38,284 bases of DNA, taken from Candidatus Parcubacteria bacterium. GTDB lineage: Bacteria > Patescibacteriota > Microgenomatia > Levybacterales > GWA1-39-11. The notes beneath the pieces are model-generated. The model was not told where the DNA came from. It worked only from the letters and a program-made list of their open reading frames with translations, and did not search any database. The stretch is from the NCBI GenBank assembly GCA_003599595.1, contig QZIP01000048.1, positions 1-38,284 of the forward strand, read 5' to 3'. Shown piece after piece: positions 1,032-30,350 of the stretch. Made by a program: the position numbers and the translations under genes. The number at the start of each line of letters is the position of its first letter. The first letter of the stretch is position 1.

Positions 1032-1093
1032 GGGGTCGTAGCTCAGTTGGGAGAGGAACATCAAATATTCCTAGCCTCACTGCCTACCCCGTA
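1032..1093 (+). pseudogene. Broken copy of the tRNA-Asp 5' half
   Basis: The first 19 bases (1032-1050) are identical to the 5' end of the intact tRNA-Asp at 1105-1123, from the acceptor strand GGGGTCG to the start of the D-loop. After that the sequence diverges. A weak hairpin (GGAA/TTCC) and a terminal TACCCC that could pair with GGGGT give a rough tRNA-like outline, but there is no T-arm and no usable anticodon arm. I read it as a tRNA fragment, not a working tRNA. Confidence 0.7.
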
Positions 1094-1104: not shown

Positions 1105-1178
1105 GGGGTCGTAGCTCAGTTGGTTAGAGCGCTTCCCTGTCACGGAAGAGGTCGCGGGTTCGAGTCCCGTCGACCCCG
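1105..1178 (+). tRNA. tRNA-Asp (anticodon GTC)
   Basis: Acceptor arms GGGGTCG (1105-1111) and CGACCCC (1171-1177) pair fully. The D-stem is GCTC/GAGC, the anticodon stem CTTCC/GGAAG closes the loop CTGTCAC with anticodon GTC, and the T-arm contains GTTCGAGT. The discriminator is G, as usual for Asp. A full CCA is not encoded (GCAA follows). Its acceptor 3' strand GACCCCG is followed nine bases later by the inverse CGGGGTC, and a second copy of its 3' half lies downstream. Confidence 0.95.
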
Positions 1179-1191
1179 CAAAATTTACGGG

Positions 1192-1234
1192 GTCACGGAA
1201 GAGGTCGCGGGTTCGAGTCCCGTCGACCCCGCAA
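1192..1234 (+). repeat. Duplicate of the tRNA-Asp 3' half (att-like direct repeat)
   Basis: The 43 bases at 1192-1234 are identical to 1139-1181, which run from the anticodon to just past the acceptor stem of tRNA-Asp, at a period of 53 bases. A duplicated tRNA 3' end is the classic footprint of site-specific integration, but only ten bases separate the copies, so any element is gone or the copy arose another way. Confidence 0.85.
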
Positions 1235-16205: not shown

Positions 16206-16442
16206 ATGTTTTACACATATGTTCTAAAGAGCAAAAGGGATGACAAGCTATATGTAGGACATAGTGATAATTTAAAGAATAGAATTCAAAAACACAATAA
16301 AGGATTGGTAAAATCTACAAAAGACAGGAGACCTTTGCAATTGATGTATTACGAAGCCTGTTTGAATGAGAGTAAATCGATTAAGAGGGAACAGTACTTT
16401 AAAACTGGTTTTGGAAGAAGGTTTTTGAAAAATAGAATATAA
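16206..16442 (+). CDS. Small GIY-YIG endonuclease, upstream of tRNA-Lys
   Basis: A 78-residue stand-alone GIY-YIG domain (YhbQ/URI type). YTYVLKSKRDDKLYVGHSDN carries the paired YxY...YVG motif, NLKNRIQKHNKG supplies the conserved Arg and His, and the Glu of KREQYFK (about residue 62) completes the metal site; it ends in GFGRRFLKNRI. All catalytic positions are kept. No DNA-binding module is attached. The gene ends 84 bases before tRNA-Lys, and a paralogue follows on the other side of the tRNA. No Shine-Dalgarno; the mRNA leader would be very short. Confidence 0.92.
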   Translation: MFYTYVLKSKRDDKLYVGHSDNLKNRIQKHNKGLVKSTKDRRPLQLMYYEACLNESKSIKREQYFKTGFGRRFLKNRI

Positions 16443-16480
16443 TAATATCCGTAGTCTCGTAGTATTGGTTTGTGAAATGC

Positions 16481-16531
16481 GGCCCCCGCCCGCCACGCAA
16501 GCCGAGCCTGACGAGGCGTTGCGGGAGGGCC
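16481..16531. repeat. GC-rich stem-loop whose 3' arm enters tRNA-Lys
   Basis: GGCCC, CCCGC and CGC blocks at 16481-16498 pair with GCG, GCGGG and GGGCC at 16516-16531, with a bulge and a two-base mismatch, around an inner GCCT/AGGC hairpin. The 3' arm includes the first bases of the tRNA acceptor stem. Confidence 0.6.
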
Positions 16532-16602
16532 GATAGCTCAATTGGCAGAGCAAAAGCCTTTTAAGCTTTTGGTTCCGGGTTCGAGTCCCGGTCGGCTCAC
16601 CA
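16527..16602 (+). tRNA. tRNA-Lys (anticodon TTT)
   Basis: Acceptor GGGCCGA pairs with TCGGCTC (one G-T), the D-stem is GCTC/GAGC, the anticodon stem AAAGC/GCTTT closes loop CTTTTAA (anticodon TTT), the T-arm is CCGGG-TTCGAGT-CCCGG, discriminator A, and CCA is encoded at 16600-16602. Both ends take part in larger palindromes with outside sequence. Confidence 0.95.
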
Positions 16603-16640
16603 AGCTAAGCTTGGTGAATATCGAGCTCAGCTCGATCACC
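16598..16640. repeat. Two perfect triloop hairpins after tRNA-Lys
   Basis: CACCAAGC-TAA-GCTTGGTG (16598-16616) includes the tRNA 3' end CACCA in its left arm. ATCGAGC-TCA-GCTCGAT (16620-16636) follows and is itself framed by GGTG/CACC. The second GIY-YIG ATG comes three bases later. Confidence 0.85.
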
Positions 16641-16643
16641 ATA

Positions 16644-16916
16644 ATGTATTACATTTATATTTTATTCTCGGATAAAGATAAACAACTTTATACAGGATTT
16701 ACAGATAATCTCCGCTCACGATTTAAAGCTCATACTGAAGGATACGTCAAGGCAACTAAGCATAGAAGGCCAATAAAACTAATTTATTATGAAGAGTATC
16801 AATCTGAGTCGGATGCGAGAAGAAGAGAAAAATACTTAAAAGGTGGGAATGGACGGAAAGAATTAAAAATACAGCTTAAAGATATATTTACCGAACTTAA
16901 ATATAAAAATCTTTAG
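16644..16916 (+). CDS. Small GIY-YIG endonuclease, downstream of tRNA-Lys
   Basis: 90 residues from the ATG at 16644 (MYYIYILFSDKDKQLYTGFT); longer frames would begin inside the tRNA. YIYILFS...LYTGFTDN, RFKAHTEG, YYEEY and RREKYLKGGNGRKELK are the conserved blocks, with the catalytic Tyr pair, Arg and Glu present. It is clearly paralogous to the gene on the other side of tRNA-Lys and to the pair at tRNA-Glu. Stand-alone nucleases of this kind act on DNA; its natural target is unknown. The hairpins just before the ATG leave no room for a Shine-Dalgarno. Confidence 0.92.
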   Translation: MYYIYILFSDKDKQLYTGFTDNLRSRFKAHTEGYVKATKHRRPIKLIYYEEYQSESDARRREKYLKGGNGRKELKIQLKDIFTELKYKNL

Positions 16917-29160: not shown

Positions 29161-29235
29161 GCCGCGTTCGTTCCCGATGGTAGTTTTCATACGGGATCCC
29201 GATGACAACGATCATCGGGGCTAGTGGCCCAGGAC
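29161..29235 (+). pseudogene. Broken copy of the tRNA-Glu 5' half, split by a double hairpin
   Basis: GCCGCGTTCGT (29161-29171) and CTAGTGGCCCAGGAC (29221-29235) match tRNA-Glu bases 1-26 with one mismatch, but 49 bases are inserted between them. The insert is two hairpins that both open with TCCCGATG (29172-29196 and 29197-29219). The next nuclease gene starts five bases after the fragment. Confidence 0.8.
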
Positions 29236-29239
29236 TAAA

Positions 29240-29494
29240 ATGTTTACGACATATATACTAAAAAGTGAGAAAGATGGTAGATTTTATATTGGTAGTACAG
29301 GTAATATTTCTGAAAGAATAATAAGACACAATAAAGGATACTCAAAATACACTAAAGGGAAGGGTCCTTATAAATTAATTTATAAAGAAGATTATAATAC
29401 TTTAGCTGAAGCAAAAAAGAGAGAGTATTATTTAAAATCATTAAAAAGTAAGGTTGCAATTGAAAAAATAGTAAATAGAGCCGCGTTCGTCTAG
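29240..29494 (+). CDS. Small GIY-YIG endonuclease ending inside tRNA-Glu
   Basis: 84 residues: TTYILKSEKDGRFYIGSTGN, RIIRHNKG, LIYKEDY, KKREYYLKSLKSK. The GIY-YIG Tyr/Gly pattern, Arg and Glu are present. The last six codons (NRAAFV, TAG) are read from the first bases of tRNA-Glu (29480-29494), so the reading frame borrows its C-terminus and its stop from the tRNA. Just upstream is a partial tRNA-Glu copy. Family members usually end in similar basic or variable tails, so activity is possible. No Shine-Dalgarno is seen. Confidence 0.92.
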   Translation: MFTTYILKSEKDGRFYIGSTGNISERIIRHNKGYSKYTKGKGPYKLIYKEDYNTLAEAKKREYYLKSLKSKVAIEKIVNRAAFV

Positions 29495-29553
29495 AGGCCC
29501 AGGACGACTGGTTTTCAGCCAGTAAATCAGGGGTTCGAATCCCCTACGCGGTA
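29480..29553 (+). tRNA. tRNA-Glu (anticodon TTC)
   Basis: Acceptor GCCGCGT pairs with ACGCGGT (one G-T at the end), the anticodon stem ACTGG/CCAGT closes loop TTTTCAG with anticodon TTC, and the T-arm has AGGGG-TTCGAAT-CCCCT. Discriminator A. CCA is not fully encoded (ACCG follows). The 3' acceptor strand is followed directly by its inverse, forming ACGCGGT-ACCGCGT. Confidence 0.94.
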
Positions 29554-29689
29554 CCGCGTCAAACGCGGCTTCGCCCAAGAAGCCAAGTTTGAAACCACGT
29601 CAAACGTGGTTTAGCGTGTCGCGTGTGACGCGACGACTAACGAAATATATTTTTATGGAAACGTTTGACGTTTCCTCGCTTTCAGCGAG
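29546..29689. repeat. Chain of six perfect hairpins between tRNA-Glu and the next GIY-YIG gene
   Basis: In order: CCGCGT-CAA-ACGCGG (29554-29568); GGCTTC/GAAGCC with a six-base loop (29567-29584); a nine-bp stem AAACCACGT / ACGTGGTTT with loop CAA (29592-29612); GTCGCGT-GTG-ACGCGAC (29618-29634); GGAAACGT-TTG-ACGTTTCC (29657-29675); CTCGCT-TTC-AGCGAG (29675-29689). Four share the core CGT-N3-ACG. The last two lie inside the next gene. Confidence 0.92.
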
Positions 29690-29972
29690 ATATTACGTAT
29701 ATATTTTATACTTTTATAGTGATAAGGGTTTCTACATTGGATTTTCCACAAACTTGAAAGATCGCTTAATAGATCATGCCAGCGGAAAAGTATTCTCAAC
29801 AAAAGATAGAATTCCATTCAAATTAATCCACTATGAATATTTCATTAATAAAAAAGATGCAAAAGCAAGGGAAGAATTCCTTAAAAGTGGATATGGAAGA
29901 GATCAGCTTAAAAATTTTCTAAAGAATACACTTCTAATGATTAAGGGTAGCAGGAATACAAAAGCTAAATAG
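29655..29972 (+). CDS. Small GIY-YIG endonuclease after tRNA-Glu, N-terminus encoded by hairpins
   Basis: 105 residues from ATG 29655. The first 11 codons (METFDVSSLSA) are made of two perfect hairpins, and the true domain starts RYYVYILYFYSDKGFYIGFS. NLKDRLIDHASG, LIHYEYF and AREEFLKSGYGRDQLK complete the GIY-YIG pattern with the catalytic Tyr, Arg and Glu present. A longer frame from 29589 reads through the other hairpins and is rejected. It is the fourth paralogue in the window and the second at tRNA-Glu. Confidence 0.88.
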   Translation: METFDVSSLSARYYVYILYFYSDKGFYIGFSTNLKDRLIDHASGKVFSTKDRIPFKLIHYEYFINKKDAKAREEFLKSGYGRDQLKNFLKNTLLMIKGSRNTKAK

Positions 29973-30206
29973 ACCCTATTCTTAATATATCTCAACAAGC
30001 GTTCAAGCTCTTTTTCTAAACAATTATATTAAATGACTCCTCCAAAGAATTTTGTTTACAGAGGTAAAACTACATTAAAAACCATGCTTAAGGAATATTT
30101 TGAATCCATAAAGAAATAGTTTGTACTGAGTTTGTTGAACCTAGGTTCGTAAACGAAGTGCACCACTCAGGTATAATATCTGTCTAGGAGGGAGGTGTAC
30201 GAAAAG

Positions 30207-30350
30207 ATGCGAACCTATCATCATTTAACGCTTGAGGAAAGAGAAAAATTCCTTCTTCGATATCAAGTAAGGTATAATACAATTACATCAAGTGGTATAC
30301 TTCAACTGCGAATGAAGGAAATTCTTTATGACCAACTAACAAACCTATAG
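30207..30350 (+). pseudogene. IS30-type transposase remnant, N-terminus only
   Basis: MRTYHHLTLEEREKFLLRYQ is the start of IS30 family transposases (M.YHHLT.EERE). After about 20 residues the similarity stops and the frame ends at TAG 30348-30350 (47 codons). The Shine-Dalgarno AGGAGGGAGGTG is preserved, as is TATAAT upstream (about 30173). A 28-codon frame at 30034-30120 (MTPPKNFVYRGKTTLKTMLK and on) precedes it; I cannot place it. These two scraps are all I see in 29973-30386. Confidence 0.75.

Follow-up and report, generated by a model that had tools for sequence, protein, structure and literature searches.

Free-standing GIY-YIG nuclease genes adjoining bacterial tRNA genes are candidate mobile elements that home into and replace tRNA genes

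Small genes predicted to encode free-standing GIY-YIG endonucleases lie next to tRNA genes in a member of the Candidatus Levybacteria family and in many other bacteria, and we consider it likely that they are mobile, homing into tRNA genes and restoring the tRNA from a copy within the element. By analogy, they are best read as a chromosomal variant of the phage enzyme SegB that also replaces genes in the manner of the mORFs of fungal mitochondria. The adjacency alone is observed; from it we infer that the adjoining tRNA gene is the locus recognized by the nuclease. Few genes are as conserved as those for tRNAs, and a mobile nuclease that invades them, restores their function and leaves the old gene behind as debris would explain rapid change in tRNA sequence between relatives, the occurrence of relics and of duplicated tRNA genes, and the presence of several tiny GIY-YIG genes in many CPR genomes.

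Nuclease genes at tRNA-Lys and tRNA-Glu and their enrichment beside tRNA genes

The window, that is, the whole stretch of 38,284 nucleotides analyzed here, is contig C10 of a draft genome of 1.397 Mb in 52 contigs (Candidatus Levybacteria family, CPR); all features described below are on its + strand. On the 5' side of tRNA-Lys(UUU) (16527..16602) lies GIY-YIG nuclease gene 1 (16206..16442; 78 aa), separated from the tRNA by a GC-rich hairpin (16480..16526; z -1.8). On the 3' side, two short palindromes (16600..16637; z -4.5) occupy the interval from the end of the tRNA to the ATG of gene 2 (16644..16916; 90 aa). We detected no relic beside the tRNA-Lys genes of the window.

The same layout recurs at tRNA-Glu(UUC) (29480..29555), with gene 3 (29240..29494; 84 aa) on the 5' side and gene 4 (29655..29972; 105 aa) on the 3' side. 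Gene 3 overlaps the tRNA by 15 nt, and its stop codon TAG forms part of the tRNA D arm. A chain of palindromes (29553..29690; z -6.0) separates tRNA-Glu from gene 4, the start of which is uncertain (ATG at 29655, domain from 29688). Upstream of gene 3 is a tRNA-Glu relic, in which nt 1-11 (29161..29171) and nt 12-26 (29221..29235) are split by a 49-nt double palindrome (29172..29220); the insert site at nt 11/12 is common to the Glu elements of two other genomes, which belong to the same protein clade. A further short ORF at 30195-30350 (MYEKMRTYHHLTLEEREKF...) resembles the start of an IS30-type transposase.

All four window ORFs match the Pfam GIY-YIG family far above the cut-off (4.6e-12 to 2.6e-17), which bears out an earlier sequence-only reading that had placed same-strand nuclease genes on both sides of each of these two tRNAs. 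The Rfam scan of the window returned four tRNAs only, with no group I intron around the GIY-YIG ORFs. Gene 1 clusters with 5'-Lys genes from two other genomes, gene 3 is a member of a 5'-Glu clade, and the nearest relative of gene 4 is a 3'-His gene on contig C43; a leader similar to the palindromes of gene 2 also precedes an orphan gene on contig C5. In both window pairs the two members fall in different clades and are not recent duplicates. Tandem duplication, considered as the origin of the pairs, was ruled out, as each gene is closer to genes at tRNAs elsewhere in this genome or in other genomes than to its neighbor.

At a third tRNA gene of the window, an intact tRNA-Asp(GUC) (1105..1179) stands within 1032-1232 between two partial copies that match it exactly, one of 19 nt on its upstream side (nt 1-19; 1032..1050) and one of 41 nt on its downstream side (nt 35-75; 1192..1232), and no nuclease gene is present. 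This locus is probably a relic site from which the element has since been lost.

We used whole-genome searches to compare the positions of 14 small GIY-YIG matches and 45 tRNA matches in the genome that contains the window; 10 of the 14 lie ≤200 bp from a tRNA, against an expectation of 0.27 (P = 8e-15), and all 10 are on the strand of that tRNA. Five GIY-YIG matches in long ORFs lie at least 540 bp from a tRNA or on tRNA-less contigs. Two-sided brackets occur in this genome only at the tRNA-Lys and tRNA-Glu of the window, so the bracketing described in the sequence-only reading is real at these two sites but rare, and one-sided adjacency is the rule. An eleventh small gene (contig C18, L010 4139-4512) lies directly 3' of a tRNA-Met(cat) that contains a group I intron (RF00028) and that was missed by ARAGORN and the tRNA search.

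No second genome was available for the genus of the window genome. Across 41 genomes of the order, in which loci were chosen by domain score and not by tRNA, 74 of 116 distinct small GIY-YIG genes lie ≤200 bp from a tRNA, covering nearly every isotype, and 72 of these 74 are co-oriented with it. When sampling was extended to the phylum, only 6 of the 29 top-scoring Pfam GIY-YIG loci were near a tRNA, which shows that the tRNA habit belongs to certain clades; the association proposed for stand-alone GIY-YIG genes therefore holds for those clades and not for all. Of the 80 homologs that a scan of named genomes recovered for the tRNA-linked clade A2, 65 lie ≤200 bp from a tRNA, all on the same strand. 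This sample was seeded with the closer set A2 and is biased towards tRNA-linked clades, and what it conveys is breadth, with hosts in CPR, Bacteroidota, Ignavibacteria, Elusimicrobia, Omnitrophota, Planctomycetota, Zixibacteria and others. The enrichment in relatives that the sequence-only reading had named as a check is thus present both within the order and across phyla.

A single relative was found on viral contigs. On a viral-labelled contig (L256 2230-2760), a GIY-YIG gene is followed by a tRNA-like start whose anticodon loop is interrupted by DNA that contains an HNH-like ORF. In a Kazan-division genome (L237), a tmRNA-like 3' end lies ~180 nt upstream of a GIY-YIG gene.

Broken tRNA copies, palindromes and the displacement of tRNA-Ile

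Relics of the adjoining tRNA were scored with an insert-tolerant alignment (score ≥22; 116 of 136 loci scored). Beyond the nuclease gene, a relic of the element's own tRNA was present at 57/74 loci on the 5' side, compared with 8/148 mismatched-isotype controls, and at 19/42 loci on the 3' side, compared with 4/84 controls. About a quarter of 5'-side genes and about half of 3'-side genes have no detectable relic. The resulting layout consists of the 5' part of the relic, the nuclease gene, the intact tRNA and the 3' part of the relic, or a one-sided version of this arrangement; the 5' side accounts for over half of the insertions, and in these the 5' end of the tRNA is duplicated.

Many relics are interrupted by palindromes. 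A perfect stem of at least 6 bp was found in 37 of 48 relic inserts (compared with 6% of shuffles), and a GC-rich stem precedes 49/81 nuclease ORFs on the 5' side, compared with 7/345 other ORFs. At several loci a palindrome replaces a whole tRNA arm; examples are Ile, Val, Gly and Ala relics that lack their anticodon arm and Tyr and Val relics that lack their T arm. Palindrome positions within relics are clade-specific, and one element is often flanked by an identical palindrome on both sides; some relics have no internal palindrome.

The clearest case of displacement involves tRNA-Ile. In genome G005, two relic halves flank the nuclease gene and the intact tRNA, and their acceptor strands, GGGTCGG and CCGACCC, pair with each other, whereas the resident intact tRNA-Ile has the acceptor strands GGGCACG/CGTGCCC. 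The 5' relic is identical to tRNA-Ile of element-free genomes at 25/26 positions versus 17/26 for the genome's own tRNA, and the 3' relic at 30/31 versus 25/31. Similarly, the 5' relic of G015 is identical to tRNA-Ile of element-free genomes at 25/25 positions and to its own tRNA at 18/25. Since the relics match element-free relatives and the intact copy differs, the native tRNA appears to have been split and displaced.

Syntenic tRNA-Ile sites in genus g15 provide a comparison of presence and absence. G017 has a native, element-free tRNA-Ile with the acceptor strand GGATCGG. In G016, a GGATCGG relic is split around a nuclease gene and a GGGCAGC tRNA-Ile, and in G029, a GGGCAGC tRNA-Ile lies directly behind a homologous upstream ORF, which G016 shares, with no nuclease gene or relic. 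The site is thus occupied in G016 and empty in G029 and G017, and element-free, invaded and replaced states are seen within one genus. The proposal of the sequence-only reading, in which tRNA genes are the targets or insertion sites of these nucleases, gains support from the enrichment and from the occupied and empty tRNA-Ile sites, where the native copy persists as split relics matching element-free relatives; cleavage of tRNA genes by the bacterial proteins is a putative step.

At tRNA-Leu(cag) in G004, a DNA search gave weaker support for a native relic than at tRNA-Ile in G005, G015 and G016, and a strict pattern for the native tRNA-Leu(cag) form returned no match. Acceptor stems of tRNA-Ile(gat) vary strongly between related genomes (GGGTCGG, GGGCAGC, GGGCACG, GGGTGGC, GGATCGG and others; L129-L158). 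The divergent resident tRNA-Ile could have been brought by the element or could have changed after insertion.

Nuclease proteins, clades and arrays

Each nuclease protein is a single GIY-YIG domain that does not lie within an intron or intein. AlphaFold predicted the structure of the gene 2 protein with a pLDDT of 91; the nearest solved structures are UPF0213, SLX1 and I-TevI, and the best matches in both sequence and structure are the UPF0213 entries 1zg2 and 1ywl. Each of the residues Tyr5, Tyr16, Gly18, Arg26, His30 and Glu62 is retained by at least 201 of the 203 sequences, and well-separated pairs give dN/dS values of about 0.07-0.2, a sign of purifying selection. The retention of active-site residues together with low dN/dS indicates an active nuclease under selection. 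A search of a defence-system library yielded weak partial matches only.

On a FastTree phylogeny of 203 proteins (78 columns, with many forks unresolved), tRNA isotype switches 63 times, whereas shuffling of the labels gives 102 ± 2.5 switches; for the side of the tRNA (5' or 3'), the corresponding numbers are 24 and 43 ± 2.6. Judged from this tree, protein clades track tRNA identity.

Tandem arrays occur in cultured flavobacteria. In Zunongwangia atlantica (NZ_ARYN01000001, L225; nuclease of 78 aa), four units, each composed of the 5' half of tRNA-Arg(tcg) and a nuclease gene, are followed by an intact tRNA-Arg, and the anticodon arm of the tRNA halves holds a palindrome of 20 nt. Maribacter caenipelagi has a mirror array, in which the intact tRNA-Arg comes first and the palindrome occupies the same tRNA-Arg site. 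These arrays show apparently recent activity of the element, and the availability of Zunongwangia and Maribacter as cultured carriers makes the idea of a tRNA-replacing element testable now. In two other Bacteroidetes genomes (L232, and L235 of a Sphingobacteriales bacterium), a complete tRNA-Arg(tct) with a palindrome in its anticodon loop is followed by the nuclease gene and then by an intact tRNA.

Proposed mechanism, competing explanations and related systems

Under the proposed mechanism, the nuclease would cut an intact tRNA gene in the D, anticodon or T arm, and a donor or array that bears the element would serve as the template for repair of the break. Repair would copy in the nuclease gene together with a complete tRNA, so that the essential tRNA would be restored and the old gene left in pieces; repeated rounds would build arrays. 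At many loci the relic equals the intact tRNA over the compared part, which rules out sequence resistance as the general reason that the intact tRNA is spared. The palindromes probably keep the relic from being cut, from folding as a tRNA or from recombining back. Palindromes are also present elsewhere, and this putative protective role is therefore the weakest link of the mechanism.

A different kind of association would be a functional one, in which the nuclease acts on the tRNA itself, in processing, in quality control or as an anticodon-nuclease toxin, and the hairpin-bearing, tRNA-like relics serve as decoy or antitoxin RNAs, as in type III toxin-antitoxin systems, where a repeat RNA neutralizes an endoribonuclease toxin. 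Strict co-orientation with the tRNA, strong purifying selection on the nuclease and the location of palindromes where tRNA arms would be are compatible with such a role, as is the Zunongwangia array, in which tRNA-like units recur before the nuclease gene; tandem units of this kind occur in some arrays. However, relics are often mere fragments, some decayed to a few nucleotides, those of the 3' type lie downstream of the gene, and at tRNA-Asp they occur with no gene at all. Displacement of a native tRNA and nuclease remnants would not be expected from a functional linkage, and the GIY-YIG family is one of established DNA nucleases; we regard this explanation as unlikely. For compact CPR genomes, in which the intergenic space near tRNAs tolerates small ORFs, one might invoke chance, the density of genes or simple tandem duplication of a nuclease gene near tRNAs, but the probability obtained in a single genome, the proportion of tRNA-adjacent genes in the order, the placement of pair members in different clades and the frequency of own-tRNA relics far above the control leave it a negligible prospect.

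tRNA genes are classic attachment sites, and 3'-side relics look like attachment duplications, as would be expected if tRNA ends were simply general insertion hot spots of the kind used by tyrosine-integrase islands, which carry an integrase and duplicate the tRNA 3' end. The elements described here, in contrast, have no integrase and no other cargo: the insert between relic and tRNA is one ORF of ~80 codons, 5' relics are common and more than half of the insertions duplicate the 5' end, nearly all are on the same strand, and protein clade tracks tRNA isotype. Passive attachment thus seems very improbable. We think it similarly doubtful, to the point of being hard to credit, that the palindromes themselves are the mobile agent in a REP/RAYT-like system, with the GIY-YIG protein inserting or trimming hairpins in tRNA arms and duplication of the tRNA allowing the cell to survive. 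The predominance of palindromes among relic inserts, the same palindrome on both sides of many elements and the consistency of positions within clades point in that direction, whereas palindrome sequences vary by locus and also occur away from any GIY-YIG gene, and some relics lack an internal palindrome.

Homing of a free-standing nuclease into tRNA genes, the reading that we prefer, has known parallels, namely tRNA-linked GIY-YIG enzymes in phages and gene-replacing endonuclease elements in fungal mitochondria. The sequence-only reading knew of no described system in which such nucleases bracket tRNA genes, and here phage SegB is prior art. SegB, which T-even phages encode, is a free-standing homing endonuclease of the GIY-YIG family; it reportedly cuts within tRNA genes and amplifies tandem tRNA-segB units by homologous recombination (PMC13096335). 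It resembles the present genes in its GIY-YIG family, its position outside introns and its co-localization with tRNA genes; SegB is phage-encoded, whereas the present genes are chromosomal and encode a bare domain of ~80 aa. Split native relics, tRNA replacement, palindromes and the tracking of isotype by clade characterize the present elements and are not reported for SegB in the text consulted (PMC13096335).

In the mORFs of fungal mtDNA (gene hybrids in Glomus, Allomyces, Rhizopus and Mortierella), an endonuclease ORF and a foreign replacement part are found in an essential gene, and the native part persists as a downstream relic that matches sister species (PMC3630166). The same comparison of relic with relatives, as used for mORFs, gave a match for tRNA-Ile in G005, G015 and G016. 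However, mORFs affect the C-termini of mitochondrial protein genes, often encode LAGLIDADG enzymes and form in-frame hybrids, whereas the present elements affect whole bacterial tRNA genes, occur on either side and have palindromes in their relics, making mORFs an analogue and not a class to which these elements belong. In CPR rRNA genes, insertion sequences include GIY-YIG ORFs in structural RNA genes outside group I and II introns, but these are sparse, and the authors judged them to be outside spread by homing (PMC11270868). That work concerns rRNA genes and leaves tRNA genes unmentioned (PMC11270868), whereas the present elements are at tRNA genes. UPF0213/YhbQ proteins share the size and fold of the nucleases (a single GIY-YIG domain of ~80-100 aa), but UPF0213 is a structural-genomics label with no tRNA context, and most top Pfam scorers in the phylum are away from tRNAs. 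Homing endonucleases of group I introns are encoded inside the intron, unlike the GIY-YIG ORFs of the window.

The literature searched yielded no account of a chromosomal element by which tRNA genes are split and replaced. We tentatively raise the possibility that the present elements form an undescribed, widespread class of selfish chromosomal elements, which would break essential tRNA genes, supply a replacement copy, make the dead copies uncuttable by means of palindromes and so render the host dependent on the tRNA of the element. If this were true, selfish elements would be a main driver of acceptor-stem turnover and of tRNA pseudogene arrays across CPR and Bacteroidota.

Short GC-rich palindromes inserted in structured RNA genes include the double-hairpin elements of Allomyces and other organelle GC palindromes, none of which is known to travel with a nuclease or to mark dead gene copies. 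The palindrome GTCGCCTNAGGCGAC was considered as a private mark of the present system and rejected, as it is also present away from tRNAs. Palindromes of this type may belong to a separate family of hairpins that build up in dead copies of tRNA genes, or they may be a general hairpin element of structured RNA genes. GTCGCCTNAGGCGAC was also observed in the loops of apparent group I introns (L160, L164 and L171).
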